This document shows, piece by piece, positions 18,034 to 63,258 of a stretch of DNA of 64,000 bases (positions are counted from its first letter, which is position 1; each line of letters opens with the position of its first letter). A model generated the notes under the pieces. The model saw only the letters and a program-made list of their open reading frames with translations, was not told the origin of the DNA and made no database searches. This stretch comes from Flexivirga endophytica (GTDB taxonomy: Bacteria > Actinomycetota > Actinomycetes > Actinomycetales > Dermatophilaceae): NCBI RefSeq assembly GCF_014640635.1, contig NZ_BMHI01000002.1, forward strand, positions 372,001 to 436,000, given 5' to 3'. The translations under genes and the position numbers were made by a program.

Positions 18034-18096
18034 GGTCTCGATACGCCTCGCCTAGCGGCTCGGCTACTCGACCCGCAATAGCTCCGCTACTCGACC
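18034..18096. repeat. Dispersed repeat, family A, intergenic copy
   Basis: Begins GGTCTCGATACG and ends CTACTCGACC, with a second truncated CTACTCGACC end at 18087-18096. This is the inverse orientation of the copies at 21234, 28706 and 59872. It occupies most of the gap between hutH and hutU, and its inverted ends could form a hairpin within the operon transcript. Confidence 0.7.
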
Positions 18097-18133
18097 AGCT
18101 TGAACTGACTGACAACGAAAGGATCTGACGATC

Positions 18134-21219: not shown

Positions 21220-22493
21220 CGGACTCACACGCTGGTCGAGTGCCGGGGGAGCGAAGCGGAGGAGGTGTATCGAGACCAAGTGCCGCAGGAACTTCGGCCA
21301 GCTTCGACCGGATGTGGGCGGACCTCGACCCGGTGGGCCGTGCGTCCTCCGGCGGCTACCGGCGCTTCGCCTGGACCGCGGAGGACCACACACTGCGTGA
21401 GTGGTTCGCGGCCGAGTGCGCCGGTCGCGGGCTCGATCTGGTCGAGGACCGGATGGGCAACCAGTGGGCGTGGTGGGGCGACCCGGACACCGACGGACCC
21501 GGGGTCGTCGTCGGGTCACACCTGGACTCCGTGCCCGACGGTGGCGCGTACGACGGCCCCCTGGGCGTCGTCTCCGGACTCGCCGCCGTCGATGCGTTGC
21601 GGGAGAGGGGCTTCAAGCCCGAGCGTCCCATCGCCGTCGTCAACTTCGGTGACGAGGAGGGTGCACGATTCGGAGTGGCCTGCGCCGGCTCGCGGGTGAT
21701 CACCGGAGCCATGACCGCCGATCGCGCGCTGAGCCTCACCGATGCGGACGGCGTCACGATGGCCGAGGCGCTACGTCGCGCGGGCCGCACGCCGGACACG
21801 ATCGGGCGGGACCCCGACACCCTGCGCCGCATCGGGCAGTTCGTCGAGTTGCACGTGGAACAGGGACGGGCGCTGGCCGACCTCGATCCGACGACCTCCG
21901 CCGTGGCCATCGGCACCGACATCTGGCCGCACGGTCGCTGGCGGATCGACCTGCCCGGCACGGCGAACCACGCCGGGACGACGGCATTGGCCGACCGGCA
22001 GGACGCGATGATGTCCGCCGCCGAGGTCGTGCTCGCCGCACGATCGGCCGCTGCGACCAACGGCTGCGTCGCCACCACCGGCAAGATCTCGGTCGAGCCG
22101 GGCGGGGTGAACGCCATACCGTCGCACGTGACGCTATGGCTCGATGCACGTGGTTCGGACCAGAACGCCGTGCACACAACGGTTTCCGCGATCGCGGACG
22201 CTACGCGCCGGTTCGGCGGCACCCTCTCCGAGGAGTCCTGGACCGAGACGACCCGCTTCGACGACGACCTGTCCGGTCGGCTCCGCGACATCCTCGGCGA
22301 GCAGACACCGATGCTCGGCACCGGTGCCGGCCACGACGCCGGGGTGCTCGCGACTGCAGGAGTGTCCACCTCGATGCTCTTCGTCCGCAACCCGACCGGT
22401 GTGTCCCACTCCCCGGAGGAGTTCGCCGAGCGTGACGACTGCCTGCGTGGTGTCGACGCTCTCGCGACCGTCGTGGAGGAGCTCTCCTCATGA
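21216..22493 (+). CDS. M20-family amidohydrolase (allantoate amidohydrolase-like), candidate N-formylglutamate hydrolase
   Basis: 425 residues of the hydantoinase/carbamoylase branch of M20 metallopeptidases. Metal-binding segments are GSHLDSVPDGGAYDGPLG (about 99-116), GDEEGARF (about 148), FVELHVEQG (about 209) and a late SHSPEE. NHAGTTALADR belongs to the dimerisation lid. These enzymes hydrolyse N-carbamoyl or ureido groups using two metals. In this hut operon the classical HutG types are missing, so release of glutamate from N-formylglutamate is the likely task (inference). Residues ~7-21 are encoded by a dispersed repeat, giving an unconserved N-terminus. Confidence 0.82.
   Translation: MTDSHAGRVPGERSGGGVSRPSAAGTSASFDRMWADLDPVGRASSGGYRRFAWTAEDHTLREWFAAECAGRGLDLVEDRMGNQWAWWGDPDTDGPGVVVGSHLDSVPDGGAYDGPLGVVSGLAAVDALRERGFKPERPIAVVNFGDEEGARFGVACAGSRVITGAMTADRALSLTDADGVTMAEALRRAGRTPDTIGRDPDTLRRIGQFVELHVEQGRALADLDPTTSAVAIGTDIWPHGRWRIDLPGTANHAGTTALADRQDAMMSAAEVVLAARSAAATNGCVATTGKISVEPGGVNAIPSHVTLWLDARGSDQNAVHTTVSAIADATRRFGGTLSEESWTETTRFDDDLSGRLRDILGEQTPMLGTGAGHDAGVLATAGVSTSMLFVRNPTGVSHSPEEFAERDDCLRGVDALATVVEELSS
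21234..21277 (+). repeat. Dispersed repeat, family A, inside the M20 amidohydrolase gene
   Basis: Begins GGTCGAGTGCCGGGGGAGCG and ends GTATCGAGACC, matching the copies at 18034 (inverse), 28706 and 59872. It starts 18 bases into the coding sequence and is read in frame, giving the N-terminal residues RVPGERSGGGVSRP. Confidence 0.75.
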
Positions 22494-28022: not shown

Positions 28023-29348
28023 TCATACGTCGCCGAGCAACTGCACGGGTCGCTCGACGGCGTCGGCGACGAAGCGCAGGAAGCCGCCCGCGACGCCGCC
28101 GTCACAGACACGGTGGTCGAAGGTCAGGCCGAGCTGGACGACCTTGCGCACGGCGAGCTCGCCGTCGACCACCCACGGACGCTCGAAGACGCGGCCGACG
28201 CCCAGCATCGCTGCTTCGGGGTGGTTGATGATCGGTGTGCTGCCGTCGACCCCGAAGACGCCGTAGTTGTTCAGCGTGAACGTGCCACCGGTCAGGTCGG
28301 CCGGTGCGAGCGTGCCGTCGCGGGCCGCGTCGACCAGTTGCACCATGCGCTCGGCGAGCTGCCGGGTCGTCAGCCGGTCGGCGTCGTGCACGACCGGCAC
28401 GACGAGGCCGCGCGGAGAGTCCGCCGCGAACCCCAGGTGTATGGCGCCATGGCGCACGATCTCCTGGCGCTCGGTGTCGACCGAGGAGTTCAGCTCCGGG
28501 TACTCGCCCAGCCCGGCGACGCAGATACGGCCCAGCAGCGCCAGCAGCCCGCCGCGCTCCAGGCCGATCACCCGGCGGGCCTCGACCAGACCGGTCGCGT
28601 CCGCGTCGACCCACGTCGTGGCGTCCGGGATCTCGCGGCGGGAAGTGGTCAGCTTGTCGGCGACGAGCCTGCGGATGCCGGTCAGCGGCACACGTTCATC
28701 ACGCTGGTCGAGTAGTGGAGGAGCGGAGCGGGGGAGCGTATCGAGACCCGCCACCGCAGCCTCGACGTCGGTGCGGCGGATGATGCCGTCGGGGCCGGGC
28801 GTGACCGCCCCCAGGTCGAGGCCGCGCTCGGAGGCCAGCCGACGCACGATCGGTGAGATGACCTTCGGCGCTCCACCCCCATGCCGAATGACGGCTTTTT
28901 CGCCGAGTGACGGTGCAATAGGACCGTCACTCGCCGAGGAAGCCGTCACTCGCGGTGGGGTGGTGGGTGGGGTCGCGGCCCCTGTGTGCTGACGTCGGCG
29001 GGCGGCACGACGCCCGGACGAGCCGGAGGAACCGACGTCGGTGGTGCCGTATCCCACCAGCACCGCGCCGGAGCCGTCGTTCTCGACATCGCCGGTTGCT
29101 TCCGTGCTGCCGGAAGCGACTGTCAGCAAAGGGGATCCGACCTCGATCGTGTCGCCCTCGGCGCCGTGGCGGGTGTGCACCCGGCCGGCATACGGGCAGG
29201 GCACCTCGACGGTCGCCTTGGCGGTCTCGACGACGACGACGTGCTGGTCGATGGCGACCTCGTCGCCGTCGGCGACCAGCCACTCGACGAGATCGGCCTC
29301 GGTCAGGCCTTCGCCGAGGTCGGGCAGGTTGAAGGTCTGCTCAGCCAC
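28023..29348 (-). CDS. bkdC: Branched-chain 2-oxoacid dehydrogenase E2 (dihydrolipoyl acyltransferase)
   Basis: 441 residues in the order lipoyl domain (1-80, lipoyl Lys44 in ETAKATVEV), flexible linker, E1/E3-binding domain (about 163-198, ISPIVRRLASERGLDL), second linker and catalytic domain (about 215-441). The active-site DHRVCDGG (HX3DG) is intact. It transfers branched acyl groups to CoA. Both linkers carry dispersed repeats read in frame: family C at residues ~132-155 and family A at ~201-214. Its start overlaps the E1beta stop by eight bases. No E3 gene is present nearby. Confidence 0.9.
   Translation of the reverse strand: MAEQTFNLPDLGEGLTEADLVEWLVADGDEVAIDQHVVVVETAKATVEVPCPYAGRVHTRHGAEGDTIEVGSPLLTVASGSTEATGDVENDGSGAVLVGYGTTDVGSSGSSGRRAARRRQHTGAATPPTTPPRVTASSASDGPIAPSLGEKAVIRHGGGAPKVISPIVRRLASERGLDLGAVTPGPDGIIRRTDVEAAVAGLDTLPRSAPPLLDQRDERVPLTGIRRLVADKLTTSRREIPDATTWVDADATGLVEARRVIGLERGGLLALLGRICVAGLGEYPELNSSVDTERQEIVRHGAIHLGFAADSPRGLVVPVVHDADRLTTRQLAERMVQLVDAARDGTLAPADLTGGTFTLNNYGVFGVDGSTPIINHPEAAMLGVGRVFERPWVVDGELAVRKVVQLGLTFDHRVCDGGVAGGFLRFVADAVERPVQLLGDV
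28706..28748 (-). repeat. Dispersed repeat, family A, inside the E2 gene
   Basis: On the plus strand it begins GGTCGAGTAGTGGAGGAGCG and ends GTATCGAGACC. It lies between the subunit-binding domain and the catalytic domain of E2, and encodes the linker residues GLDTLPRSAPPLLDQ in the antisense frame of the repeat. Confidence 0.78.
28883..28953 (-). repeat. Dispersed hairpin repeat, family C, inside the E2 gene
   Basis: Long interrupted palindrome built from CCGAGTGACGG units, nearly the same as the copy at 63136-63212 in front of recR. Read on the minus strand it encodes [19 protein letters not shown] of the first E2 linker. The recR copy would encode almost the same peptide. Confidence 0.85.
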
Positions 29349-37804: not shown

Positions 37805-37816
37805 CACCCCCCTTGT

Positions 37817-37910
37817 GCCGAGAGGACAGGCAATGGCCGGGAGGACAGGGAAAACCGCCCGAATCGGGCCTGTTTTGCCTGTCCTCTCGACGAACGGGTG
37901 TCCTCTCGGC
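37817..37910. repeat. Palindromic repeat region (family D) between convergent genes
   Basis: GCCGAGAGGACAGGC (37817-37831) is mirrored by GCCTGTCCTCTCG (37877-37889) and TGTCCTCTCGGC (about 37899-37910), with an imperfect extra unit GGGAGGACAGGG. It can form a long hairpin and lies between the MFS gene and the convergent MMPL gene, so it may act as a two-way terminator. Confidence 0.6.
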
Positions 37911-37917
37911 GAGAGGG

Positions 37918-45121: not shown

Positions 45122-45294
45122 GCCTTGACGGTACAGCGCGACCGCTCCACCGAAAGTGCAGGAAGTGTCGTTCCGAGTCGCGTATGCCGACACGGTTTGC
45201 ACTCTCGTGAAGAAGTGGCGGTAGGAGCCGTCGCGCCGAGCCGCCTCGTTCCTCGGCGCCTCGGGCGCTCCTCCCAAATCCCGCTGTCTCCAAT

Positions 45295-45341
45295 AAAAAA
45301 TGAGGGACCCGACGAAACTGCTGTCGGGTCCCTCATTTTTT
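45295..45341. terminator. Rho-independent terminator, duplicated copy 1
   Basis: AAAAAATGAGGGACCCGAC mirrored by GTCGGGTCCCTCATTTTTT around a 9-base loop. It works on both strands. It is the outer copy created by the tandem duplication. Confidence 0.8.
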
Positions 45342-45425
45342 GGCGGTGGCGGTGGGAGCCGTCGCGCCGAGCCGCCTCGTTCCTCGGCGCCTCGGGCGCT
45401 CCTCCCAAATCCCGCTGTCTCCAAT

Positions 45426-45472
45426 AAAAAATGAGGGACCCGACGAAACTGCTGTCGGGTCCCTCATTTTTT
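45426..45472. terminator. Rho-independent terminator of tRNA-Ser, copy 2
   Basis: Same perfect hairpin as copy 1, 131 bp away, with A and T tracts on either side. It starts right at the CCA end of the tRNA, so it ends the tRNA transcript on the minus strand. Confidence 0.85.
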
Positions 45473-45561
45473 GGCGGTGGCGGTGGGATTTGAACCCACG
45501 GTGGAGTTGCCCCCACACAACATTTCGAGTGTTGCACCTTCGGCCGCTCGGACACGCCACC
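45472..45561 (-). tRNA. tRNA-Ser (anticodon CGA)
   Basis: The minus strand folds as a class II tRNA. The acceptor stem is GGTGGCG/CGCCACC with discriminator G and an encoded CCA. The anticodon stem is CAACA/TGTTG around the loop CTCGAAA, so the anticodon is CGA (codon UCG). A long variable arm (GGGGGCAACTCC) and the T-arm GTGGGTTCAAATCCCAC follow. It is followed directly by its terminator. Confidence 0.95.
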
Positions 45562-52377: not shown

Positions 52378-52514
52378 ACCGGTGAGACTGCCGAGTCGGC
52401 CTTGCGGGCACGCGGCATACAGGTGAATCCGCGGCGTACATCCAGCACCTCGCGGTGAGCGGAGGATAGGACAACCGTCGCTGCGCTCCTCCCGAATCGT
52501 GCGCCTCGCGGAAA

Positions 52515-52559
52515 AGCTGAGAGGGACCGTCCGAAGATCGTGGACGGTCCCTCTCAGCT
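52515..52559. terminator. Terminator of tRNA-Ser (GGA)
   Basis: AGCTGAGAGGGACCGTCC mirrored by GGACGGTCCCTCTCAGCT, perfect 18-base arms with a 9-base loop. On the minus strand a short T-run follows. It directly follows the CCA end of the tRNA. Confidence 0.85.
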
Positions 52560-52560
52560 T

Positions 52561-52648
52561 TGGCGGAGGATAGGGGATTCGAACCCCTGAGAGCTTTCAC
52601 TCAACACGCTTTCCAAGCGTGCGCACTAGGCCACTATGCGAATCCTCC
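52561..52648 (-). tRNA. tRNA-Ser (anticodon GGA)
   Basis: The minus strand folds as a class II tRNA. The acceptor stem is GGAGGAT/ATCCTCC with discriminator G and encoded CCA. The anticodon stem is CACGC/GCGTG around TTGGAAA, giving anticodon GGA (codons UCC/UCU). A long variable arm and the T-arm AGGGGTTCGAATCCCCT follow. With the other tRNA-Ser, two serine tRNAs lie in 7 kb. Confidence 0.95.
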
Positions 52649-52734
52649 GCCGAGGAGAATACCTGCTCACCGCCCGGACACCGAATCGGGATCGAAGCGG
52701 CGGTCTCGATTGCGTATGACGGGCCTGCGTGTTC

Positions 52735-52740
52735 TACAGT
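52735..52740 (+). promoter_or_regulatory. -10 element for SRP RNA gene
   Basis: TACAGT, 7 nt before the predicted 5' end of the SRP RNA near 52748. The -35 region is not obvious. Confidence 0.35.
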
Positions 52741-52747
52741 TGGCGCC

Positions 52748-52840
52748 GGACCCCTCGTGCGGTGGTACCTCTCCGAACTCCCCCAGGGCAGGAATGCAGC
52801 AAGGGTAGGAGAGCTCTTCCAGGTGTGCGGGGGGTTCTTT
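52748..52840 (+). ncRNA. ffs: Small signal recognition particle RNA (4.5S-type)
   Basis: The core CCCCCAGGGCAGGAATGCAG followed by CAAGGGTAGG matches the SRP domain IV loop and tetraloop region bound by Ffh. The outer arms GGACCCC and GGGGTTC pair to close the hairpin, and a T-rich stretch ends it. The gene lies near dnaX, as it does in many actinobacteria. It guides membrane-protein targeting. Confidence 0.9.
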
Positions 52841-52847
52841 TACACCC

Positions 52848-53014
52848 CACGAAGTTCTCCGCTCGTACCTCGCTCCGATACTTCGCGGGGACCCCGGATG
52901 AGCGCCCACGAAGTTCTCCGCTCGTACCTCGCTCCGATACTTCGCGGGGACCCCGGATGAGCGCCCACGAAGTTCTCCGCTCGTACCTCGCTCCGATACT
53001 TCGCGGGGACCCCG
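52848..53014. repeat. Family B repeat, three tandem 59-bp copies
   Basis: Copies start at 52848, 52907 and 52966 with a period of exactly 59; the last is cut short. Each unit contains CGAAGTTCTCCGCTCG, CTCCGATACTTCGCGG and GATGAGCGCC. The ends CGAAGT/ACTTCG are inverted. Relatives occur inside dnaX (59976) and as a fragment before hutF (22505). The unit is too long to be a CRISPR repeat with spacers. Confidence 0.88.
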
Positions 53015-53046
53015 AACCGCGTCAGAGATGTCGTTCGCTCATGCCG

Positions 53047-54660
53047 TCACCCGCTCGGCGATGGCGAAGGCGACTTGGACTCGTCCGGTGACACACAGCC
53101 CGGCGGTTTGGACCGCACCGGCTTGAAGTCGCTGCTCAGCCGGACCGGACCACTGGTCGGCATGGTGACCCGCAACCAGCCGTCGTTGTCGACGATGCAC
53201 GCGGTCTCCGGCCGCTTGGTCAGCGGATTGACCGCGCCGATGTATCCCGAATAACGCACCTTCAGGTCGATCGGTCTGTCCGCAGTCGCGTTGAGCGTGA
53301 CGCCGTGCGAGTCGATCTTGAGGACGTCGCCGCCCTTGGCCAACGGTGCCGGGTTGACGACCCGGTAGAGCTGCCAGTCCGAGTTGCTCCAGGTCAGCTT
53401 CAGGTAGGGCAGCCCGCCCCGCACGAGCTCGGCCTCGTCCCGGGAGGCGTAGTCGATCGGGGCCTTGGGCACGGCCACCCAACCGACCGCGAGCGAGTCC
53501 AGCCACTGGCGGTAGCTGACCGGGTTGAGCAGGCCCTTCTTGTAGAAGATCGTGTTGTCCGCCTGGTCGGCCTGCCGGTCCCAGCCGCGGGCGATCGAGA
53601 ACGACGCCAGGTAGACCGATCCCCAGTGGTTCTTGGTGTCCACGACCTCGACCCGCCGGCCGATCACCTCCTGGCCGAGCTGCTTCTGATCGGTCTTCAG
53701 CGCCGCCGCGAGCGGTTGGTAATAGACGTAACTGCTCGACGGCTGACCGGCCAGGTGCAACTGGTTGACCAGGTCGCTGACCGGCCAGATCGCGACCACC
53801 AGGGCGCACACCCAGGCGAGGGAGTCGCGGATCTCGGCATACGCGATGATCGCCGGCACCGCCGCGAGCCAGGCCAGCCGAGTCGCGTTGGTGCCGATCG
53901 CCAGCGGCACGATCAGCAGTGGCAGGAACGACACGGCGAGGACGGCGGCGGTCGCACGGATGAGCTTGTGCTGGCACACGCCGAACACCACGATGCAGCT
54001 GAGCATCGCCGGTGCCGCATCGGTGATCGGGAACGGCATCCTGCCGGTGCCCGGGAAGAGGATCGCCATCGCCAGCCCGGAGACCAGCAGCACCGCGGCG
54101 CAGATGCCTGCGGTACGCCGATAGTCGGGGCGCAGTATGGCGACGACGATCGCGATGATGCCGACGAAGAAGCCGGCCAGTGGTGAGCCGAGGAAGGACA
54201 ACAGGGCCAGCGCGACGGCGGACTTCTCACGATGGTTGCGCATCGCGACCAGTGCCCAGATGGCCAGCGCTGCACCGACGGTGAACGTGACGCGACCGTT
54301 GAGCAGGTCGGCGGCCTGCGCGATGGTGATCGCGACCGCACCGGCACGGGGGCGCGGTGCCTTCTCGACGAGGAGCGCCCCGCCATACGCACTGAGGATG
54401 ACGGCCGCGACGCCGGTGAGGCGGATGCCGAAGGTCGCCATCGAGAACGGCACGAACGCGCTGTAACTGGGCAACGTGATACCGCCGAACCAGCCACCCC
54501 ACCAGACGGGGGCGCCGCCGACCTGAGCGACCTTGGCGCGGGCGACCTGTGCCGCGAGATCCGGGACCTGCGGTGTCCACACGATGTAGAGCAGTGCGAA
54601 CACCACCGCGCACGCCGTTGCCAACGCCGTCGGCGAGCGCAGCCGGCGCGACGAGAGCAT
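53047..54660 (-). CDS. Large polytopic membrane protein, possible GT-C-like
   Basis: 537 residues with about ten to eleven membrane helices in the first ~330 residues and a soluble C-terminal domain of ~200 residues. An acidic motif PDLAAQVARA follows the first helix, and a WWGGWFGG segment follows it, which recalls GT-C membrane glycosyltransferases and their extracellular loop. There is no firm family match. ATG 54660 is used; GTG 54669 is possible with AAAGG just upstream. The C-terminal Ser/Pro tail is low complexity. Function unknown. Confidence 0.6.
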   Translation of the reverse strand: MLSSRRLRSPTALATACAVVFALLYIVWTPQVPDLAAQVARAKVAQVGGAPVWWGGWFGGITLPSYSAFVPFSMATFGIRLTGVAAVILSAYGGALLVEKAPRPRAGAVAITIAQAADLLNGRVTFTVGAALAIWALVAMRNHREKSAVALALLSFLGSPLAGFFVGIIAIVVAILRPDYRRTAGICAAVLLVSGLAMAILFPGTGRMPFPITDAAPAMLSCIVVFGVCQHKLIRATAAVLAVSFLPLLIVPLAIGTNATRLAWLAAVPAIIAYAEIRDSLAWVCALVVAIWPVSDLVNQLHLAGQPSSSYVYYQPLAAALKTDQKQLGQEVIGRRVEVVDTKNHWGSVYLASFSIARGWDRQADQADNTIFYKKGLLNPVSYRQWLDSLAVGWVAVPKAPIDYASRDEAELVRGGLPYLKLTWSNSDWQLYRVVNPAPLAKGGDVLKIDSHGVTLNATADRPIDLKVRYSGYIGAVNPLTKRPETACIVDNDGWLRVTMPTSGPVRLSSDFKPVRSKPPGCVSPDESKSPSPSPSG

Positions 54661-54898
54661 GACGTCCACGGTACCTTTCGACCCCCTGCGGTCCCTGTGG
54701 TTGCGCGCGCTGGTGGGCCGCGCAACCGGTGTCCATTCTGCCTCTCCTGCAGCTTCGGTCGGCACCCACGAACGCACGAGGCATGTCCCGGGACATCTTT
54801 CCCGGCGCGACGGGACAGCACACCGTTCCGGATGGGACGCCGCGCGGCACATCGTTGCCCGATCGCCGCACCCTCGGCGACCTCGAAGGGAGACCGAC

Positions 54899-55762
54899 AT
54901 GACTCACCGCACAGGACGTTCGCTGGCGGCGCTCGCCGCCGCCGGACTGACCATCGCCCTCACCGCAGGCACGAGCAGCGCAGATCCGATCGCGCCCGCC
55001 GCCCCGGTCGCGAACAGCATCACCATCACCTCGACCGGCGACAACTACCTCCTGCACGGCGGCATCCGGCCAGGCACGGCAACCGTCCGCTGGGTCAACG
55101 CCGATGACGAGATGCACATGATGGCGTTTGCGCGGCTCAAGCCCGGCGTCACCCTCGACAAGATCCGGGCCGCGCTGGCCCAGGGCGAGGAGAACGCCTA
55201 CCCGCTGCTGGCCGACGGGCCGGACATGGCGTATGGCGGGCCCGGCATGGTGACAGCGGGGCAGGGCGAGACGGTGACGATGACGCACCTGCGAGCCGGT
55301 GCCTACGTGCTCGTCTGCTTCATGATGGAGCCGGACGGCACGCCGCACTGGGCCGAGGGAATGGTGCGGATCCTCCAGGTCCGCGGCGCCGCCGAGACCG
55401 AGGCGCCGGCCACCGCCGGCACGATCACCGTCGACGACGACGGCATCAACCTGCCCGCCGGCTTCACCGGCCACGGGACGTATGCCGTTGTCGACACCGG
55501 CACGGCCCCGCATTCGTTCTCGCTGGCACGACTCGACCAGGGCACCAGTCTGCTCGACTTCGCCGACTCGGTGGGAATGGCATCGGGGATGGGCACTCAG
55601 CCGTCTGGTGGTGCACTGGTCTCGGGGATCGACTCGCTCAACCCCGGCCAGACGGCATACGTCACTCTGGACCTGGCGGCCGGCCATTACGGCTACCTGT
55701 CGCCGTGGGACATGGAGGGCCCGGCGCTGCCGCCGCAGAGCGGGGAAGTGACGATCCCCTGA
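54899..55762 (+). CDS. Secreted cupredoxin-like protein
   Basis: 287 residues with a signal peptide cleaved near SSADPIAPAAPVA. Two cupredoxin-like beta-sandwich halves are suggested by the repeated pattern 'ATVRWVNADDEMHMMAF...VLVCFMMEPDG' (about 61-145) and 'TYAVVDTGTAPHSFSLARL...GYLSPW' (about 195-270). Candidate copper ligands (H, C, M) occur in the first half: EMHMMAF and LVCFMMEPDGTPHW. Metal binding is inferred from the fold. AGGGAG precedes the ATG. It is upstream of the sensor kinase, 167 bp apart, on the same strand. Confidence 0.65.
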   Translation: MTHRTGRSLAALAAAGLTIALTAGTSSADPIAPAAPVANSITITSTGDNYLLHGGIRPGTATVRWVNADDEMHMMAFARLKPGVTLDKIRAALAQGEENAYPLLADGPDMAYGGPGMVTAGQGETVTMTHLRAGAYVLVCFMMEPDGTPHWAEGMVRILQVRGAAETEAPATAGTITVDDDGINLPAGFTGHGTYAVVDTGTAPHSFSLARLDQGTSLLDFADSVGMASGMGTQPSGGALVSGIDSLNPGQTAYVTLDLAAGHYGYLSPWDMEGPALPPQSGEVTIP

Positions 55763-55893
55763 ACGCACCCACCCCGGTTGGCGGCCGTCGTGCCGAGCGC
55801 CCTCGGGAAATGTCCGCCTCGCCATACCCGACCGGAGCACCATGGGGTGTGGCACTCCGAACGGCCGCATCGTCCGTCACCGCGACGCCAAGT

Positions 55894-55918
55894 GGTACGC
55901 CACTTCCGCGTGGGTACC
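55894..55918. promoter_or_regulatory. Inverted repeat upstream of sensor kinase gene
   Basis: GGTACGCCAC mirrored by GTGGGTACC (one base missing) with a short spacer, ending about ten bases before the ATG at 55930. It may be an operator or part of the promoter of the two-component pair. Confidence 0.35.
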
Positions 55919-55929
55919 ATCTGGGCCGA

Positions 55930-57960
55930 ATGCTCTTGTCCGGCAGGGGATTACCGGCGCTGCGCCGGGTGCTGGTGGTCTCCGGATCGGTCGGGCTCGT
56001 TGTCCTCGTCGGGCTGCACGTCCTCAACCGCGGCACCCCCGTGGACACCTGGGGACTCGGCAACACCGTGCTCGGCTTCGGGCTGGGGCTGACCGGCGCG
56101 CTGCTCACCGCTCGCTTCCCGGGCAATCCGATCGGCTGGATCTTCCTGGTCGGCGGCGTCGGGCAGAGCCTGTGCGGAGCATCGCGGGAGTGGGCGATCT
56201 ACGCCGCGCTGACCGACCCCGGCTCACTGCCGGCACCGGAGTGGGCGGCCTGGGCGAGCGGCTGGCTGCAGCAGATCGGGCTGGCCACCTTGCCGCTCGT
56301 CCTGCTGCACTTCCCCGATGGCCGGCTCGTGTCATCGGGCTGGCGGCACGTGCGCAGGCTCGTCGTCGTGGTGATGGGCGCGACCCTGGTGTTGTCCGCC
56401 GTCCAGCCGGGCCGGTTCGAACCCGACGTGCCGCTGACCAACCCGATGGGCATCGACGCGATACCCGGTGACGCGCTGTGGCCTGCCTTGTCGGCCGCCA
56501 CCGTGCTCGTCGTGCTGCTCGCGGCAGTCAGCCTGCTGGTGCGCTGGCGCCGATCCGATGTCGAGGACCGGCAGCGGATGCGCTGGGTCACCGCAAGTGC
56601 GGGCCTGCTCGCCGCCGAGGTCGTCTTCGAGATGACGGTCAACCTCGGTTCGATCCAGCATTACACCGCGTCGATCGCGCTACTGCTCTTCGTCGGGACC
56701 ATCGGGTATGCCGTGCTGCGACACCACCTCTGGGATCTCGACGTGCTTGTCAACGTCTCGGTCGTCTGCACCGTGCTGACCGCCGTCGCCCTGGGCATCG
56801 TCATGCTCTCGGCCGTCGTGGTCGACGCGATCGTCGGATCCGCGTCGGTCTGGCCGGTGGCGGGGGCGATCCTGCTCGTCATACTCCTGTTCCGGCCGTT
56901 GCGGCACGGAATCCAGTCCGCCACCGACCGGGTGCTCTACGGTCGTCGGCCCGACCCGCACCGCACGCTGGCCGGTCTGGGCCGGAGGGTCGGATCGACG
57001 GGGGCGGCCGAGCCGGTGCTCGCCGAGGCGGTCGACGCCATCGCGGCTGCGTTCCTGCGCCTCGATCACGTCGCCATCCGGACGGCCGACGGTGTCGTCT
57101 CCCGCGGCACCGCGCGTGCCGAACTCGTAGGGCTACCAATTGTTTTCCGAGGTACTCAGATCGGCCGGCTGGAGGTGGCCGCCCGTCCGGGAGCAGCGCT
57201 GCGCGGAAAGCCGCTGGCACAGATGCACGAGCTCGCCGACGAAGTCGCGCCGCTGGTCCACGCGGTCATCCTGCGTGAGGCGGTCGATCAGCTGCGGCGT
57301 GAACTCGCCTCCGCTCGAGAGGAGGAACGGCGCCGCCTGCGCCGGGACATCCACGACGGGATCGGGCCGGCGCTCGCCGCGGTCGCCCTACAGGTCGACG
57401 GCGCCGCCACGCTGGTCGACAGCTGCCCCGAGGTGGTCAAGGAGGTCCTGCTCCGGGTGGCCGGTCAGGTCGGTGACGTGCTGGCCGACATCCGACGGTT
57501 GGTGCACGAACTGCGCCCTCCGGTGCTCGACGCGCTCGGGCTCTCGGCGGCCGTCGCGCAACTCGCGACGACCTTCGCCATACCCTCCGCGGCGAAGTCG
57601 CCGGGCCTGCTGGTGACGGTGGATACACCGGACTCGCTCGGGAAACTGCCGGCCGCGGTCGAGGTCACGGCATACCGGGTCGTCGCGGAGGCGCTGAGCA
57701 ACGTCGCCCGCCACTCCGGTGCCGGGACGGCGACGGTCGTCCTCGCGCGGGGTCCCGGGCTGCTGCGCGTCGTGGTCGAGGACGACGGGGTCGGCCCGCC
57801 GCCGGACGGGCCCTACGGCGTGGGGACCATTTCGATGATCGAGCGAGCGACCGCGATCGGTGGGGACTGCACGATCGGGTCATCGGCCACGGGCGGGGTG
57901 CGGGTCAGTGCCCTGCTGCCGTTGGGGGACGGTCCCGCTCGGGACGAGGAGGTGTCGTGA
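55930..57960 (+). CDS. NarL-type sensor histidine kinase
   Basis: 676 residues. About nine membrane helices fill residues 10-330. After a linker, the HisKA_3 dimerisation domain has the phospho-acceptor His in RRLRRDIHDGIGPALAAV (about 467-484). The HATPase_c domain follows, with VAEALSNVARHSGA (N-box) and DDGVGPPPDGPYGVGT. A GAF-like segment may occupy about 350-440. The signal is unknown; the membrane helices could sense envelope state. ATG 55930 begins the first helix. The stop overlaps the response regulator start (GTGA). Confidence 0.87.
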   Translation: MLLSGRGLPALRRVLVVSGSVGLVVLVGLHVLNRGTPVDTWGLGNTVLGFGLGLTGALLTARFPGNPIGWIFLVGGVGQSLCGASREWAIYAALTDPGSLPAPEWAAWASGWLQQIGLATLPLVLLHFPDGRLVSSGWRHVRRLVVVVMGATLVLSAVQPGRFEPDVPLTNPMGIDAIPGDALWPALSAATVLVVLLAAVSLLVRWRRSDVEDRQRMRWVTASAGLLAAEVVFEMTVNLGSIQHYTASIALLLFVGTIGYAVLRHHLWDLDVLVNVSVVCTVLTAVALGIVMLSAVVVDAIVGSASVWPVAGAILLVILLFRPLRHGIQSATDRVLYGRRPDPHRTLAGLGRRVGSTGAAEPVLAEAVDAIAAAFLRLDHVAIRTADGVVSRGTARAELVGLPIVFRGTQIGRLEVAARPGAALRGKPLAQMHELADEVAPLVHAVILREAVDQLRRELASAREEERRRLRRDIHDGIGPALAAVALQVDGAATLVDSCPEVVKEVLLRVAGQVGDVLADIRRLVHELRPPVLDALGLSAAVAQLATTFAIPSAAKSPGLLVTVDTPDSLGKLPAAVEVTAYRVVAEALSNVARHSGAGTATVVLARGPGLLRVVVEDDGVGPPPDGPYGVGTISMIERATAIGGDCTIGSSATGGVRVSALLPLGDGPARDEEVS

Positions 57961-58631
57961 CCGACACCGGGCCGATCAGCGTGCTGATCGTGGACGATCA
58001 CCCGATGTTCCGGGAAGGGCTGCGTTTCGTCCTGTCCGCGGCCGGGGACATCGAGGTGGTCGGCGAGGCTGCGTCCGGGCAGGAGGCGGTCGACCTGGCG
58101 TTGGAACTGCAGCCCGACGTGGTCATCATGGATCTGGCGATGCCGGGCATGCTCGGGATCGAGGCGACCCGGGCCATCGTCACCGCGAGCCCGCACATCG
58201 GCGTGCTGGCACTGACGATGTTCGACGACGACACCAGCGTCTTCGGCGCGATGCGGGCGGGCGCTCGCGGCTACCTCCTCAAGGGCGCCGACCACGCGGT
58301 CATCTCCCAAGCGATCCGGTCGGTTGCGCGCGGTGAGGTGATCGTCGGCAGCACGGTCGCCGCGCACATCCAGCAACTGCTCGCCTCGCCTGCCGCACCA
58401 GCCGCATTCCCGGGTATGACGGCGCGCGAGCAGGAGGTGCTGGAGCTGATCGCCCGCGGCCGCGACAACGCCCGGATCGCGCGTGCTCTGGGCATCTCGG
58501 GCAAGACCGTGCGCAATCACGTGAGCAACGTCTTCACCAAACTGCAGGTAGCCGACCGGGCAGCCGCAATCGTTCGCGCCCGCGAGGCCGGCATCGGTGT
58601 CCCTGGGGGCCGCGAGCACCCGACGGCCTGA
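57957..58631 (+). CDS. LuxR/NarL-type response regulator
   Basis: 224 residues. The receiver domain (1-125) has the acidic pair Asp13-Asp14, the phospho-acceptor Asp59 (VVIMDLAMPG) and Lys in YLLKGAD. The LuxR-type HTH (about 150-210) has LTAREQEVLELIARGRDN and ISGKTVRNHVSNVFTKLQV. It is co-translated with the kinase gene through a GTGA overlap, a cognate pair. Targets are unknown. Confidence 0.92.
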   Translation: MTDTGPISVLIVDDHPMFREGLRFVLSAAGDIEVVGEAASGQEAVDLALELQPDVVIMDLAMPGMLGIEATRAIVTASPHIGVLALTMFDDDTSVFGAMRAGARGYLLKGADHAVISQAIRSVARGEVIVGSTVAAHIQQLLASPAAPAAFPGMTAREQEVLELIARGRDNARIARALGISGKTVRNHVSNVFTKLQVADRAAAIVRAREAGIGVPGGREHPTA

Positions 58632-58677
58632 CCGGGTCTTCGCGCAGTGGACCGTCACGCGTGTGGGCGAAGGCGAA

Positions 58678-58683
58678 TAGAGT
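58678..58683 (+). promoter_or_regulatory. -10 element, leaderless-type, for dnaX
   Basis: TAGAGT, 6 nt before ATG 58690. No ribosome site is seen at this start, consistent with a leaderless transcript. Confidence 0.45.
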
Positions 58684-58689
58684 TTTGGG

Positions 58690-61005
58690 ATGACCACCGC
58701 GCTCTACCGTCGTTATCGGCCCGAGACCTTCGCCGACGTCATCGGCCAGGAGCACGTCACCGAGCCGCTGATGCAGGCGCTGCGGACCGGCCGGGTCAAC
58801 CACGCCTATCTCTTCAGCGGTCCTCGCGGCTGTGGGAAGACGACCTCGGCGCGGATCCTCGCGCGCTGTCTCAACTGCGAGCAGGGGCCGACCCCCACGC
58901 CGTGTGGGCTGTGCGAGTCCTGTGTGGCGCTGGCCCGTGGCGGGTCCGGCACCGTGGACGTGATCGAGATCGACGCGGCCAGTCACGGTGGTGTCGACGA
59001 CGCGCGTGACCTGCGGGAGCGGGCGTCATACGGTCCGGCGCAGTCGCGCTACAAGATCTACATCATCGACGAGGCGCACATGGTGACGCCGCAGGGCTTC
59101 AACGCGCTGCTGAAGATCGTCGAGGAGCCGCCGGAGCACGTGAAGTTCGTCTTCGCGACGACCGAGCCGGAGAAGGTCATCGGGACCATCCGCTCGCGCA
59201 CCCATCACTACCCCTTCCGACTGGTGCCCCCGGCGCGGCTGACCGATTACCTGCAGCAGTTGTGCGACGCCGAGGGCGTCGCCGTCGAGCCTGGTGTGCT
59301 CTCGTTCGTGACGCGCGCGGGTGGCGGGTCGGTGCGTGACTCGTTGTCGGTGCTCGACCAGTTGATCGCCGGGTCGGGGGAAGAAGGACTCACGTATGCC
59401 GGAGCCGCCGCGCTCCTCGGTTTCACCGATGGTGAGCTGCTGGACGCGACCGTCGACGCGCTCGGCGCTCACGACAGCGGTGCGGTCTTCCGGCAGATCG
59501 ACCGGGTGGTCGAATCCGGCCATGACCCAAGGCGATTCATCGAGGACCTGCTCGAGCGGCTGCGCGACCTGATCGTCATCGCCGCCGTCCCGGACGGCGC
59601 GGCGCAGGTGCTGCGCGGTGTGCCGGAGGACCAGTTGGACCGGATGCGCCAGCAGGCGGCATCGTTCGGGCCGGGGGAGCTGTCCCGCGCCGCCGACATC
59701 GTCAACACCGGCCTGTCCGAGATGACCGGCGCCACCGGCCCGCGGCTGCAGCTCGAGCTGATCTGTGCGCGCGTGCTGTTGCCGGCCGTGTCCGGCGAGC
59801 AGGGGTATGCCGCCCGCCTGGACCGGCTCGAGCGCCGGATGGACATCGGTGGCGCGCCCGCGGCCGATGCTGGTCGAGTAGGGCCGAGCCACCGCGAGTC
59901 GCAACCCACAGCCGGTCGAGTAGGGCCGAGCGACGCCGAGGTGCCCGCGGAGTACTCGGGGGCTGCAGGCCCCGACGAAGTATCGGAGGAGCGAAGCGAG
60001 GGAGAGCTTCGTTGGGTGCAGGGCAGCGGAGGAGAAGCTTCGGGGGGTGGCCAGGAGGGCCGTGTCGAGACCCCGCAATCGCAGCCCGTGCAGCAGCAGG
60101 CGCAGCCCGTGCAGCAGCAACCCGAGGCACCGCAGCCCGAACCCGCCGCGGCAGCGGAACCACCCGCGCCGCCCGCGGGCGCGGTGAGCACCGACGCCGT
60201 ACGCCGTGCCTGGCCCGACGTGCTCGACCGCATCGCCCGCAGCAAGCGGGTCACCTGGGCACTGCTCAGCCAGCACGCGCACGTCGCCGACTTCGACGGC
60301 GAGACGCTCGTCCTCGGCACCAGCAGCCCGGGTCTGGCGTCCGCGGTCGAGCGAGCGCCGCACCCCGACGTCGTGGCCGCCGCGCTGTATGACGCCCTCG
60401 GCATCCGCGCTCGCGTGACGGCCCGTGCCGACGCCGGCGCACCCACGCCGAGCCTGCCGCCGGAGCCGGACGAGGGTCCGGGGTCAGGCCCAGGACAGGG
60501 TCCGGGTCAGGGCCCGAGCGCGCCCGGCGACCAAGGTCCTTCCGGTGGCTCCGGGCCACGGAGCAACCCGACTGCTTCCGAGAGCGGTGGCACAGCTGCC
60601 GACATACCGACCGGTCGTCCCGGCCCGCAGCAACCGAGCGGCGGACCGGCCGATGCCGCACCGCCGACCGACCATGCACAGGGCAGCGGGCGGCAGCCGG
60701 CCGCTGCGCAGCCGCCCGCGCGCCGGTCGCGTGCGGCCGAGGCACTCGCCCAGGCAGGGCTCTCCGCGTCCGCCGGCGCATCCGACAGCGGTGGCGGGTG
60801 GGGCTCGGTCAACGCACCGCCTCCGGAGTGGGCGACGGCCGAAAACCCGGCGGCACCAGTCAAATCCGACGAGCCGGCGGAGGCCAAGAAGGAAGAGATC
60901 ACCGAGTCGATGGACGACGAGGACGTCGACGACCCCGGCCAGGTCGGTTTGCCGGTGATGCAGTCGGTCCTCGGTGCCACTGTGATCGATGAGCAGGTCG
61001 ACTGA
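58690..61005 (+). CDS. dnaX: DNA polymerase III subunits gamma/tau
   Basis: 771 residues. The AAA+ clamp-loader domain (about 1-365) has Walker A FSGPRGCGKTTSAR (about 42-55), a zinc module with four cysteines (CLNCEQGPTPTPCGLCESC, about 60-79), DEAH in IIDEAHM and the sensor arginine region. The loader feeds DNA polymerase III. Residues ~395-461 are a linker encoded by dispersed repeats A and B. The C-terminal 300 residues are Pro/Gly-rich with a tau-like domain (about 500-590). A recR gene lies 2.3 kb downstream but ybaB is absent between them. Confidence 0.93.
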   Translation: MTTALYRRYRPETFADVIGQEHVTEPLMQALRTGRVNHAYLFSGPRGCGKTTSARILARCLNCEQGPTPTPCGLCESCVALARGGSGTVDVIEIDAASHGGVDDARDLRERASYGPAQSRYKIYIIDEAHMVTPQGFNALLKIVEEPPEHVKFVFATTEPEKVIGTIRSRTHHYPFRLVPPARLTDYLQQLCDAEGVAVEPGVLSFVTRAGGGSVRDSLSVLDQLIAGSGEEGLTYAGAAALLGFTDGELLDATVDALGAHDSGAVFRQIDRVVESGHDPRRFIEDLLERLRDLIVIAAVPDGAAQVLRGVPEDQLDRMRQQAASFGPGELSRAADIVNTGLSEMTGATGPRLQLELICARVLLPAVSGEQGYAARLDRLERRMDIGGAPAADAGRVGPSHRESQPTAGRVGPSDAEVPAEYSGAAGPDEVSEERSEGELRWVQGSGGEASGGGQEGRVETPQSQPVQQQAQPVQQQPEAPQPEPAAAAEPPAPPAGAVSTDAVRRAWPDVLDRIARSKRVTWALLSQHAHVADFDGETLVLGTSSPGLASAVERAPHPDVVAAALYDALGIRARVTARADAGAPTPSLPPEPDEGPGSGPGQGPGQGPSAPGDQGPSGGSGPRSNPTASESGGTAADIPTGRPGPQQPSGGPADAAPPTDHAQGSGRQPAAAQPPARRSRAAEALAQAGLSASAGASDSGGGWGSVNAPPPEWATAENPAAPVKSDEPAEAKKEEITESMDDEDVDDPGQVGLPVMQSVLGATVIDEQVD
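59872..60072 (+). repeat. Composite dispersed repeat (families A and B) inside dnaX
   Basis: Two starts GGTCGAGTAGGGCCGAG (59872 and 59914), one family B unit CGAAGTATCGGAGGAGCG beginning at 59976, and a closing GTCGAGACC. It stays in frame over 201 bp and encodes the linker with AGRVGPSHRESQ, AGRVGPSDAE and EVSEERSEGELR. Confidence 0.8.
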
Positions 61006-61045
61006 TGCACGAGCGCACCGGGCGGCCACAGGGCAGGGAACGGCG

Positions 61046-61723
61046 ATGACCGGAGGCCCGCTCTATCCCCTCTCGCGGATGACGGTCGCACCGTTGCTCC
61101 GAGCGATCTGGCGCCCGAATGTCGAGGGTCGCGACAACGTCCCGAGGTCCGGAGGCGTGCTGATTGCCAGCAACCACCGATCGTTCGTCGACAGCGTCGT
61201 CATACCGCTCGTCGCGCCGCGCAAAGTGGTCTTCCTCGCCAAGGCCGAATACTTCACCGGCAAAGGCCCCAAGGGGATCGCTTCGCGCACCTGGTTCAAC
61301 GCGATGGGGATGATCCCGGTCGAGCGCGATGACTCGCGGGCCGCGGTCAACTCCCTCGACCAGGCACTGCGGGTGCTGCGCGAGGGCGAGGCATTCGGCA
61401 TCTACCCGGAGGGGACCCGGTCACGGGACGGCCGCCTCTACCGTGGCCGCGTCGGTGTTGCGCACCTGGCGATGCAGGCCGGCGTGCCGGTCGTCCCGGT
61501 CGGCCTCCTCGGCACCCCGGAGGTGCAGCCGATCGGCACCAACATCCCGCGGCTGGCGAAGGTCACCGTGAAGTTCGGAGAGCCGCTCACCTTCGGCGAG
61601 GCATACCGGGCGATGCCGGCCGGTAAGGCGCGGCGCCGGGCGACCGACGAGATCATGGCCGCCATTGCCGCGCTGTCCGGCCAGGAGCGCGCGTCGTCAT
61701 ACAACGAACGCCCGCCGGGCTGA
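61046..61723 (+). CDS. 1-acyl-sn-glycerol-3-phosphate acyltransferase-like (PlsC family)
   Basis: 225 residues. The acyltransferase block I NHRSFVD (HX4D, about 42-48) and block III YPEGTRSRDG (about 119-128) are intact, with a PVERDD-like block II before it. The protein would acylate lysophosphatidate or a related acceptor at the membrane. AGGGA lies 7 nt before ATG 61046. It follows dnaX by 40 bp and is not part of any lipid operon here. Confidence 0.87.
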   Translation: MTGGPLYPLSRMTVAPLLRAIWRPNVEGRDNVPRSGGVLIASNHRSFVDSVVIPLVAPRKVVFLAKAEYFTGKGPKGIASRTWFNAMGMIPVERDDSRAAVNSLDQALRVLREGEAFGIYPEGTRSRDGRLYRGRVGVAHLAMQAGVPVVPVGLLGTPEVQPIGTNIPRLAKVTVKFGEPLTFGEAYRAMPAGKARRRATDEIMAAIAALSGQERASSYNERPPG

Positions 61724-63110: not shown

Positions 63111-63135
63111 CCGTTCCTTCGGACCGACCCGGTTT

Positions 63136-63212
63136 GCCGAGTGACGGCTCTCTCGCCGAGTGACGGTCCGATCGCGCCGTCACTCGGCGAAGAAGCCGTC
63201 ATTCGGCATGGG
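63136..63212 (+). repeat. Family C hairpin repeat upstream of recR
   Basis: Arms GCCGAGTGACGGC and GCCGTCATTCGGC enclose an inner pair CGCCGAGTGACGG / CCGTCACTCGGCG, so a long two-step stem can form. It nearly repeats the sequence inside the E2 gene at 28883-28953, with the same orientation relative to the encoded peptide. Confidence 0.85.
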
Positions 63213-63258
63213 GTGGCGCTGGTGGGCGAGGCGGGCGCGCGTCGTCGGGCCGGGCGAT

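Follow-up and report, generated by a model that had tools for sequence, protein, structure and literature searches.

A linker inside DnaX, the DNA polymerase III gamma/tau subunit of Flexivirga endophytica, is composed of pieces of two short palindromic repeats, here called families A and B, which also occur elsewhere in the genome. The reading that we favor, and to which we give a probability of about 0.8, is that a small palindromic mobile element, mostly intergenic and retained in genes at tolerant loops and linkers, has built this part of the protein. The window studied is the whole 64,000-nucleotide stretch G000:C2:372001-436000, where G000 is the F. endophytica genome analyzed, and G001 to G004 designate the other four Flexivirga genomes with which it was compared.

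The dnaX reading frame continues without an internal stop across the repeats, and Pfam matches in its product are DNA_pol3_delta2 at residues 19-177, the ATPase lid at 185-229, and the gamma3 domain III at 237-363. Residues 395-461, corresponding to the 201 nt at 59872-60072 and translated as GRVGPSHRESQPTAGRVGPSDAEVPAEYSGAAGPDEVSEERSEGELRWVQGSGGEASGGGQEGRVET, are encoded by two family A starts, a family B composite of about 109 nt, and one family A end, all of them in frame (Table 1). This arrangement had been proposed in a sequence-only reading of the region, and direct reading of the letters confirmed its coordinates and phase; the single family B unit mentioned there is present, but as the core of the longer composite. 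Among the peptides that the insert is predicted from its DNA to encode is VGPSDAEVPAEYSGAAGPDEVSEER. The DNA of the insert matches at least 46 places in its own genome, itself included, with 40 of 150 candidates scored. In an AlphaFold2 model built on a 12-sequence alignment, pLDDT falls below 50 at residues 382-496, between a helix that ends at residue 382 and a confident domain at residues 501-580. Since the mean pLDDT of the whole model is just 58.3 (pTM 0.32), we use only the contrast between the linker and its flanks, based on which the repeat linker is predicted to be disordered.

Table 1. Coordinates of dnaX and of the repeats in the window
Feature	Position	Strand	Basis or remark
dnaX, DNA polymerase III gamma/tau subunit	58690..61005	+	ORF, 771 aa
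First family A 5' end, GGTCGAGTAG, exact	59872..59881	+	codon phase 0
Second family A 5' end, GGTCGAGTAG, exact	59914..59923	+	codon phase 0
Family B composite (nested hairpins), in frame, limits approximate	59941..60049	-	alignment with nine other loci
Core hairpin of family B (limits approximate)	about 59968..60022	-	direct reading, RNA fold
Family A 3' end, GTGTCGAGACC	60062..60072	+	one mismatch to GTATCGAGACC
Repeat-holding linker, residues 383-496, predicted disordered	59836..60177	+	AlphaFold2
Family A element, exact, inside the lipoyl E2 acyltransferase gene	28706..28748	+	gene on minus strand
Second family A 5' end with an exact family A element (18034-18073)	18034..18098	-	no coding frame by dicodon test
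Family A-like element	21232..21277	+	mismatches in both ends
Family B, three tandem 59-nt units	52846..53022	+	third unit diverges at its end

Family A has conserved ends, GNNGGTCGAGTAG ... GTATCGAGACC, placed around a variable interior that forms an inverted repeat, and the ends themselves are imperfectly inverted (GGTC/GACC). Copies were searched for with the pattern GGTCGAGTAG-(6-36)-GTATCGAGACC, which allows 27-57 nt, and those found span 28-57 nt. The five Flexivirga genomes carry 27 (G000), 68 (G001), 8 (G002), 37 (G003), and 33 (G004) exact-ended copies, a total of 173 that includes one overlapping pair (G001:C1:479778-479834), while the reversed pattern used as a control gave no match in any of the five, which excludes chance or shared composition as the source of these copies. 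There are 92 distinct sequences among the 173 elements, whose ends are fixed by the search pattern. Among interiors of 16 nt or more, 81 are distinct, and their mean stem is 3.54, compared to 2.77 with permuted partners (standard deviation 0.08; highest of 500 permutations, 3.04). A G is found three bases before the 5' end in all 173 elements, and also at 268 of the 270 distinct GGTCGAGTAG places in the extracted genome stretches and the window. Exact elements are present in 8 of the 39 genomes searched: outside Flexivirga, among 20 other members of the family, G023 has 61, G022 has 7, and G008 has one, and none was seen in 14 genomes from other families of the order. Plasmids and phages were considered as carriers and set aside after a single 47-nt consensus query returned no match at E 0.01 in either collection.

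That dnaX is not alone in carrying the repeat emerged when coding frames were searched across the five genomes. We used a dicodon coding test, trained on the same loci, which an element passes if a single open frame appears coding both before and after it. For segments of 240 nt, the score is below 0.15 in 5% of the true ones and below -0.13 in 99% of those taken in a wrong frame. By this test 39 of the 173 exact elements, in 31 ORFs, are intragenic (7 of 27 in G000, 10 of 68 in G001, 4 of 8 in G002, 6 of 37 in G003, and 12 of 33 in G004), and the other 134 are not in a coding frame. The test is strict, as 252 of 595 random positions from the same loci fail it too and 343 pass; measured against these, family A elements are depleted in genes about 2.6-fold, although roughly a fifth of them are intragenic. 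Two of the 31 ORFs are doubtful, namely L293, for which no family was found, and L254, where the element precedes the MFS domain. Family scans covered 21 of the 31 ORFs, the remainder being the DnaX of G001 to G004 and L227, L229, L235, L251, L255, and L257. Carriers scoring above curated cut-offs are PurL (1929 bits vs 783), AnmK, RlmD, a DEAH-box helicase, and GlgB. Those named by family from matches below the cut-off are HsdM, ABC transporters, an ECF sigma factor, a lactate-dehydrogenase-family (LldD-like) protein, and a formate-dehydrogenase-like Fe-S protein. Two further carriers come from Pfam, a class I tRNA synthetase, read by us as IleRS, and a lipoyl E2. L212, L262, L283, and L314 had no NCBIfam match, and L293 had no Pfam match. 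In the E2 gene of the window, the element lies in the linker that joins the E3-binding domain to the catalytic domain.

As to how these elements are read, five of the six frames are open in 134 of the 173 copies. Of 30 ORF-frame cases, 24 are read in phase 0 on one or the other strand; these are two of the five usually open frames, and give GRVAEERSGGAYRD-like and GLDTxSxSxPxYSTS-like residues. This count leaves out L293 and L254, and becomes 25 of 33 if both are included. The corresponding p value of 9e-6 is overstated, because orthologues are among the cases. No enrichment for open frames was seen in the intragenic copies, which average 4.41 open frames vs 4.69 in the others.

Family A ends are present in the DnaX linker of each of the five Flexivirga genomes, but these linkers differ in copy number, subtype, and orientation, and thus do not represent one fixed ancestral linker. 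In G001, G002, and G003, the dnaX copies are on the plus strand and read in phase 0 (GRVAEERSGGAYRD), with the 5' end amplified in G003; in G004, four complete elements of reversed orientation (GLDTGSASASPYSTS) form a tandem array, and G000 has the A/B composite. Exact-ended elements are found in dnaX in four of the five genomes, and account for 8 of the 173 copies, whereas 0.09 would be expected by gene length. One of them, 43 nt long and located at C1:483594 in G001, recurs in identical form at C1:1960308, in the IleRS-like gene of that genome. To learn whether distant genera share this exact linker, on which the sequence-only reading had made its claim depend, 79 DnaX loci of a collection were compared (L003 being left out of 80), 66 of which reach at least 120 codons past domain III; the only one with an exact family A end in the 450 nt that follow domain III was that of F. 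caeni, of the same genus, whose DnaX is the same as the 702-aa protein of G002. One of the three genomes of other genera that bear family A does have a copy of its own in the DnaX linker, an exact element in G023 (G023:C4:1664858-1664899, L367), and no element was found in the DnaX linkers of G022 and G008 with up to one mismatch allowed per end. The G023 element adjoins many TPVEP repeats, which look as if they derive from the end of the element. Every Flexivirga species examined (n=5) has a repeat linker in DnaX, so that no empty site was seen within the genus, and the outside comparison for this protein is with other genera.

Empty sites were seen in other genes, however. In a visual comparison of orthologous segments from 13 genes, which covered two to five genomes each (three for AnmK, two for ABC309, ABC211, and HsdM), a shorter or empty site was found in at least one sister species for 10 of them, namely PurL, IleRS-like, AnmK, FdhB-like, helicase, RlmD, LldD-like, ABC309, ECF sigma, and MP314; in the same comparison, E2, HsdM, and ABC211 gave no clean empty site. 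Occupancy was also compared at the DNA level for five genes. In PurL, an exact element of G001 and one with a single mismatch in G004 are both in phase 1, a diverged element of G002 is in phase 0, and G000 and G003 lack an insert. Two family A elements are found in the IleRS-like gene of G001, a reversed one with one mismatch in that of G004, and family B in that of G000, with no insert in G002 and G003; the helicase gene has family A in G000 and G002. G001 and G003, both filled in DnaX, therefore differ in PurL and IleRS.

Family B, which the sequence-only reading had also placed in three tandem units 7 kb from dnaX, was found there, starting 3 nt after a small SRP RNA gene (52746-52842). A tRNA gene lies upstream of the latter on the opposite strand (52564-52648). 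At gathering thresholds, Rfam matches over 52500-61200 were this SRP RNA and tRNA, with none on the repeats. The dnaX composite aligns with nine other loci, whose flanks look unrelated by eye and two of which (L113 and L115) adjoin further family B units; it is 89% identical over 106 nt to G000:C1:349613-349718, inside the IleRS-like gene (L171, G000:C1:349397-349909), where it is read in the same frame as in dnaX. Among the best-matching loci listed, which are not a census, 6 of 43 B-like hairpins are in coding frames, in dnaX, IleRS-like, maltokinase/GlgB-like, helicase-like, and two other genes, the host names other than dnaX coming from reading of the residues. It appears that family B occupies the loop of a family A element (GGTCGAGTAGGGCC ... 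GGCCGTGTCGAGACC), which would make the composite a nested one. Folded as RNA, the core hairpin of dnaX (52 nt) reaches -19.3 kcal/mol with a z of -2.19; apart from the dnaX element of G001 and G003 and the coding strand of the G004 one, five sequences were folded, with z values of -2.84 to -4.17 in four and -2.19 in the fifth.

The window holds other repeats as well. A third palindromic repeat, with an CCGAGTGACGG motif, is found at 28877-28979, where it codes for part of the first E2 linker, and again at 63135-63232, at the start of a gene read as recR; residues resembling the linker that it encodes are seen in the E2 of G001 and G002 and not in that of G003 and G004. A 131-nt tandem duplication, 99% identical and containing terminator-like inverted repeats, occupies 45215-45488, and an inverted repeat with 51-nt arms and GAGAGGACAGG-like units, perhaps another repeat family, lies at 37810-37917.

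These observations document that family A has spread: its copies are dispersed, some are in frame, sister species have empty or shorter sites, and frames and orientations differ. To explain the dnaX linker, we propose that the two families multiplied in Flexivirga genomes, and that a family A copy landing in a gene with the frame kept would remain where additional hydrophilic residues are tolerated, such as interdomain linkers and loops, with tandem amplification and nesting lengthening the insert afterwards. The idea that a dispersed, multiplying repeat was accepted into dnaX as linker sequence, as suggested from the sequence-only reading, is hence supported, and it is mobility, as opposed to another form of copying, that we infer. 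The Y1/RAYT transposase profile (PF01797), which is what the search for a parent element covered, had no match in the five Flexivirga genomes and was found in 5 of 14 controls, including E. coli; no target-site duplication was established either, the orthologues being too diverged to read. A transposition-like spread is what the distribution of family A suggests, probably with near-neutral tolerance by the host proteins, at sites that outside dnaX may likewise be loops, and presumably driven by an enzyme.

It could be argued that the dnaX insert is an ordinary low-complexity tau linker grown by replication slippage, and that the dispersed repeats resemble it through shared composition. Tandem amplification in the G003 and G004 linkers, the 21-nt duplication at 60080-60119 of F. 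endophytica dnaX, and the variable, often Pro/Ala-rich linkers of other genera are all compatible with such growth, but slippage does not place two-ended elements at unrelated loci with a control count of zero, nor a 43-nt dnaX element in identical form in an IleRS-like gene, nor the family B composite at nine other loci, and we consider this explanation very improbable. Just as improbable, in our opinion, is that a hairpin in the dnaX message yields a shorter, gamma-like product. The frameshift site of E. coli dnaX makes such a product by use of the -1 frame, and the Flexivirga inserts come directly after domain III, with a +1 stop 9 to 26 codons past residue 382 in all five species, which is the TAG of the element itself in G000, G001, and G003 and does not derive from an exact element in G002 and G004. 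The -1 frame, however, contains no stop for 15 to 185 codons and ends at no position shared by the five species, and on this ground a frameshift for a gamma product was rejected. Furthermore, the element shared by G001 and G003 folds no better than shuffled sequences (z 0.57). In the G004 element the coding strand folds weakly (z -1.46), even though the plus strand does fold better than shuffles; elements are also found in PurL and IleRS-like genes, where no product of this sort is expected.

Somewhat more credible, and still unlikely, is that the repeats act as coding modules with a function of their own, namely to lengthen or tune flexible linkers, for which they would have been selected and kept for the sake of the protein. 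The same sites do recur, as in DnaX of five species and a second genus, IleRS-like, and PurL, and there is a bias to two hydrophilic frames; yet tolerance at a permissive site would account for both recurrence and frame bias, 134 of the 173 copies are outside a coding frame by our test, and in PurL and IleRS the insert is dispensed with by sister species. A mobile element tolerated at permissive sites is thus the reading we retain. We are considerably less confident of a bolder version of it, which we hold tentatively and would on balance bet against, in which family A is a distinct class of palindromic mobile element, with fixed GNNGGTCGAGTAG ... GTATCGAGACC ends, an exchangeable hairpin interior, and a non-RAYT mover, that returns repeatedly to permissive sites of essential genes (DnaX, IleRS, PurL) across species, frames, and orientations.

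Among known systems, the closest by description are the Rickettsia palindromic elements (RPE; Ogata et al. 2000, 2002), which belong to a different phylum. According to a review, these are fused in frame in 19 Rickettsia reading frames, and are dispersed, palindromic, also intergenic, and tolerated by the conserved proteins that host them (PMC2229807). Family A likewise combines in-frame insertion in conserved genes (31 ORFs, two of them doubtful) with intergenic copies, but its copies measure 28-57 nt, compared to 105-146 bp for RPE (PMC2229807), and have an exchangeable interior between conserved ends. In other bacteria, Di Nocera et al. 2013 described GTAG-tagged REPs inside genes, many of them for DNA synthesis or repair; these have GTAG directly before a variable inverted repeat, are similar in size, and are mostly intergenic with some copies in frame (PMC3733652), and the main text of that paper does not contain the words Actinobacteria, Streptomyces, dnaX, or clamp. 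In family A, GTAG is present by construction, having been included in the pattern used to find copies; the interior inverted repeat is supported by the permutation test, and most copies lie outside coding frames. Family A differs in its conserved outer ends beyond GTAG and in the lack of a Y1 transposase in the five genomes. The absence of a RAYT match is why we do not file family A as a RAYT-associated REP. REPs usually exceed 100 copies per genome, as stated in the abstract of PMC2817692, vs 8 to 68 exact-ended family A copies per Flexivirga genome, a count that excludes diverged and partial ones. Of the traits that define a MITE, namely terminal inverted repeats, a duplicated target site, and a parent transposon, those observed in family A come down to the imperfectly inverted ends (GGTC/GACC). 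In our searches of the open-licence literature, no title among the matches listed concerned this repeat family or DnaX inserts, and searching for the letters of the repeat ends gave, among the matches listed, no paper on bacterial repeats by title. Judging from paper titles, palindromic repeats with coding potential are also said to occur in Wolbachia and Methanocaldococcus.

By analogy, the Flexivirga case is probably best read as one of the RPE or intragenic REP kind in a new lineage, so that palindromic repeats within coding sequence, a phenomenon of Rickettsia and of some bacteria rich in REPs, would now extend to high-GC actinomycetes. It also prompts one to ask what enzyme moves GTAG-type hairpins where the genome has no RAYT, and, if family A were indeed a distinct class, DnaX, IleRS, and PurL would keep gaining new disordered segments. 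As several species can be compared at the same sites, these genomes form a natural experiment that can tell which parts of essential proteins tolerate added sequence, and in which reading frames a repeat persists.
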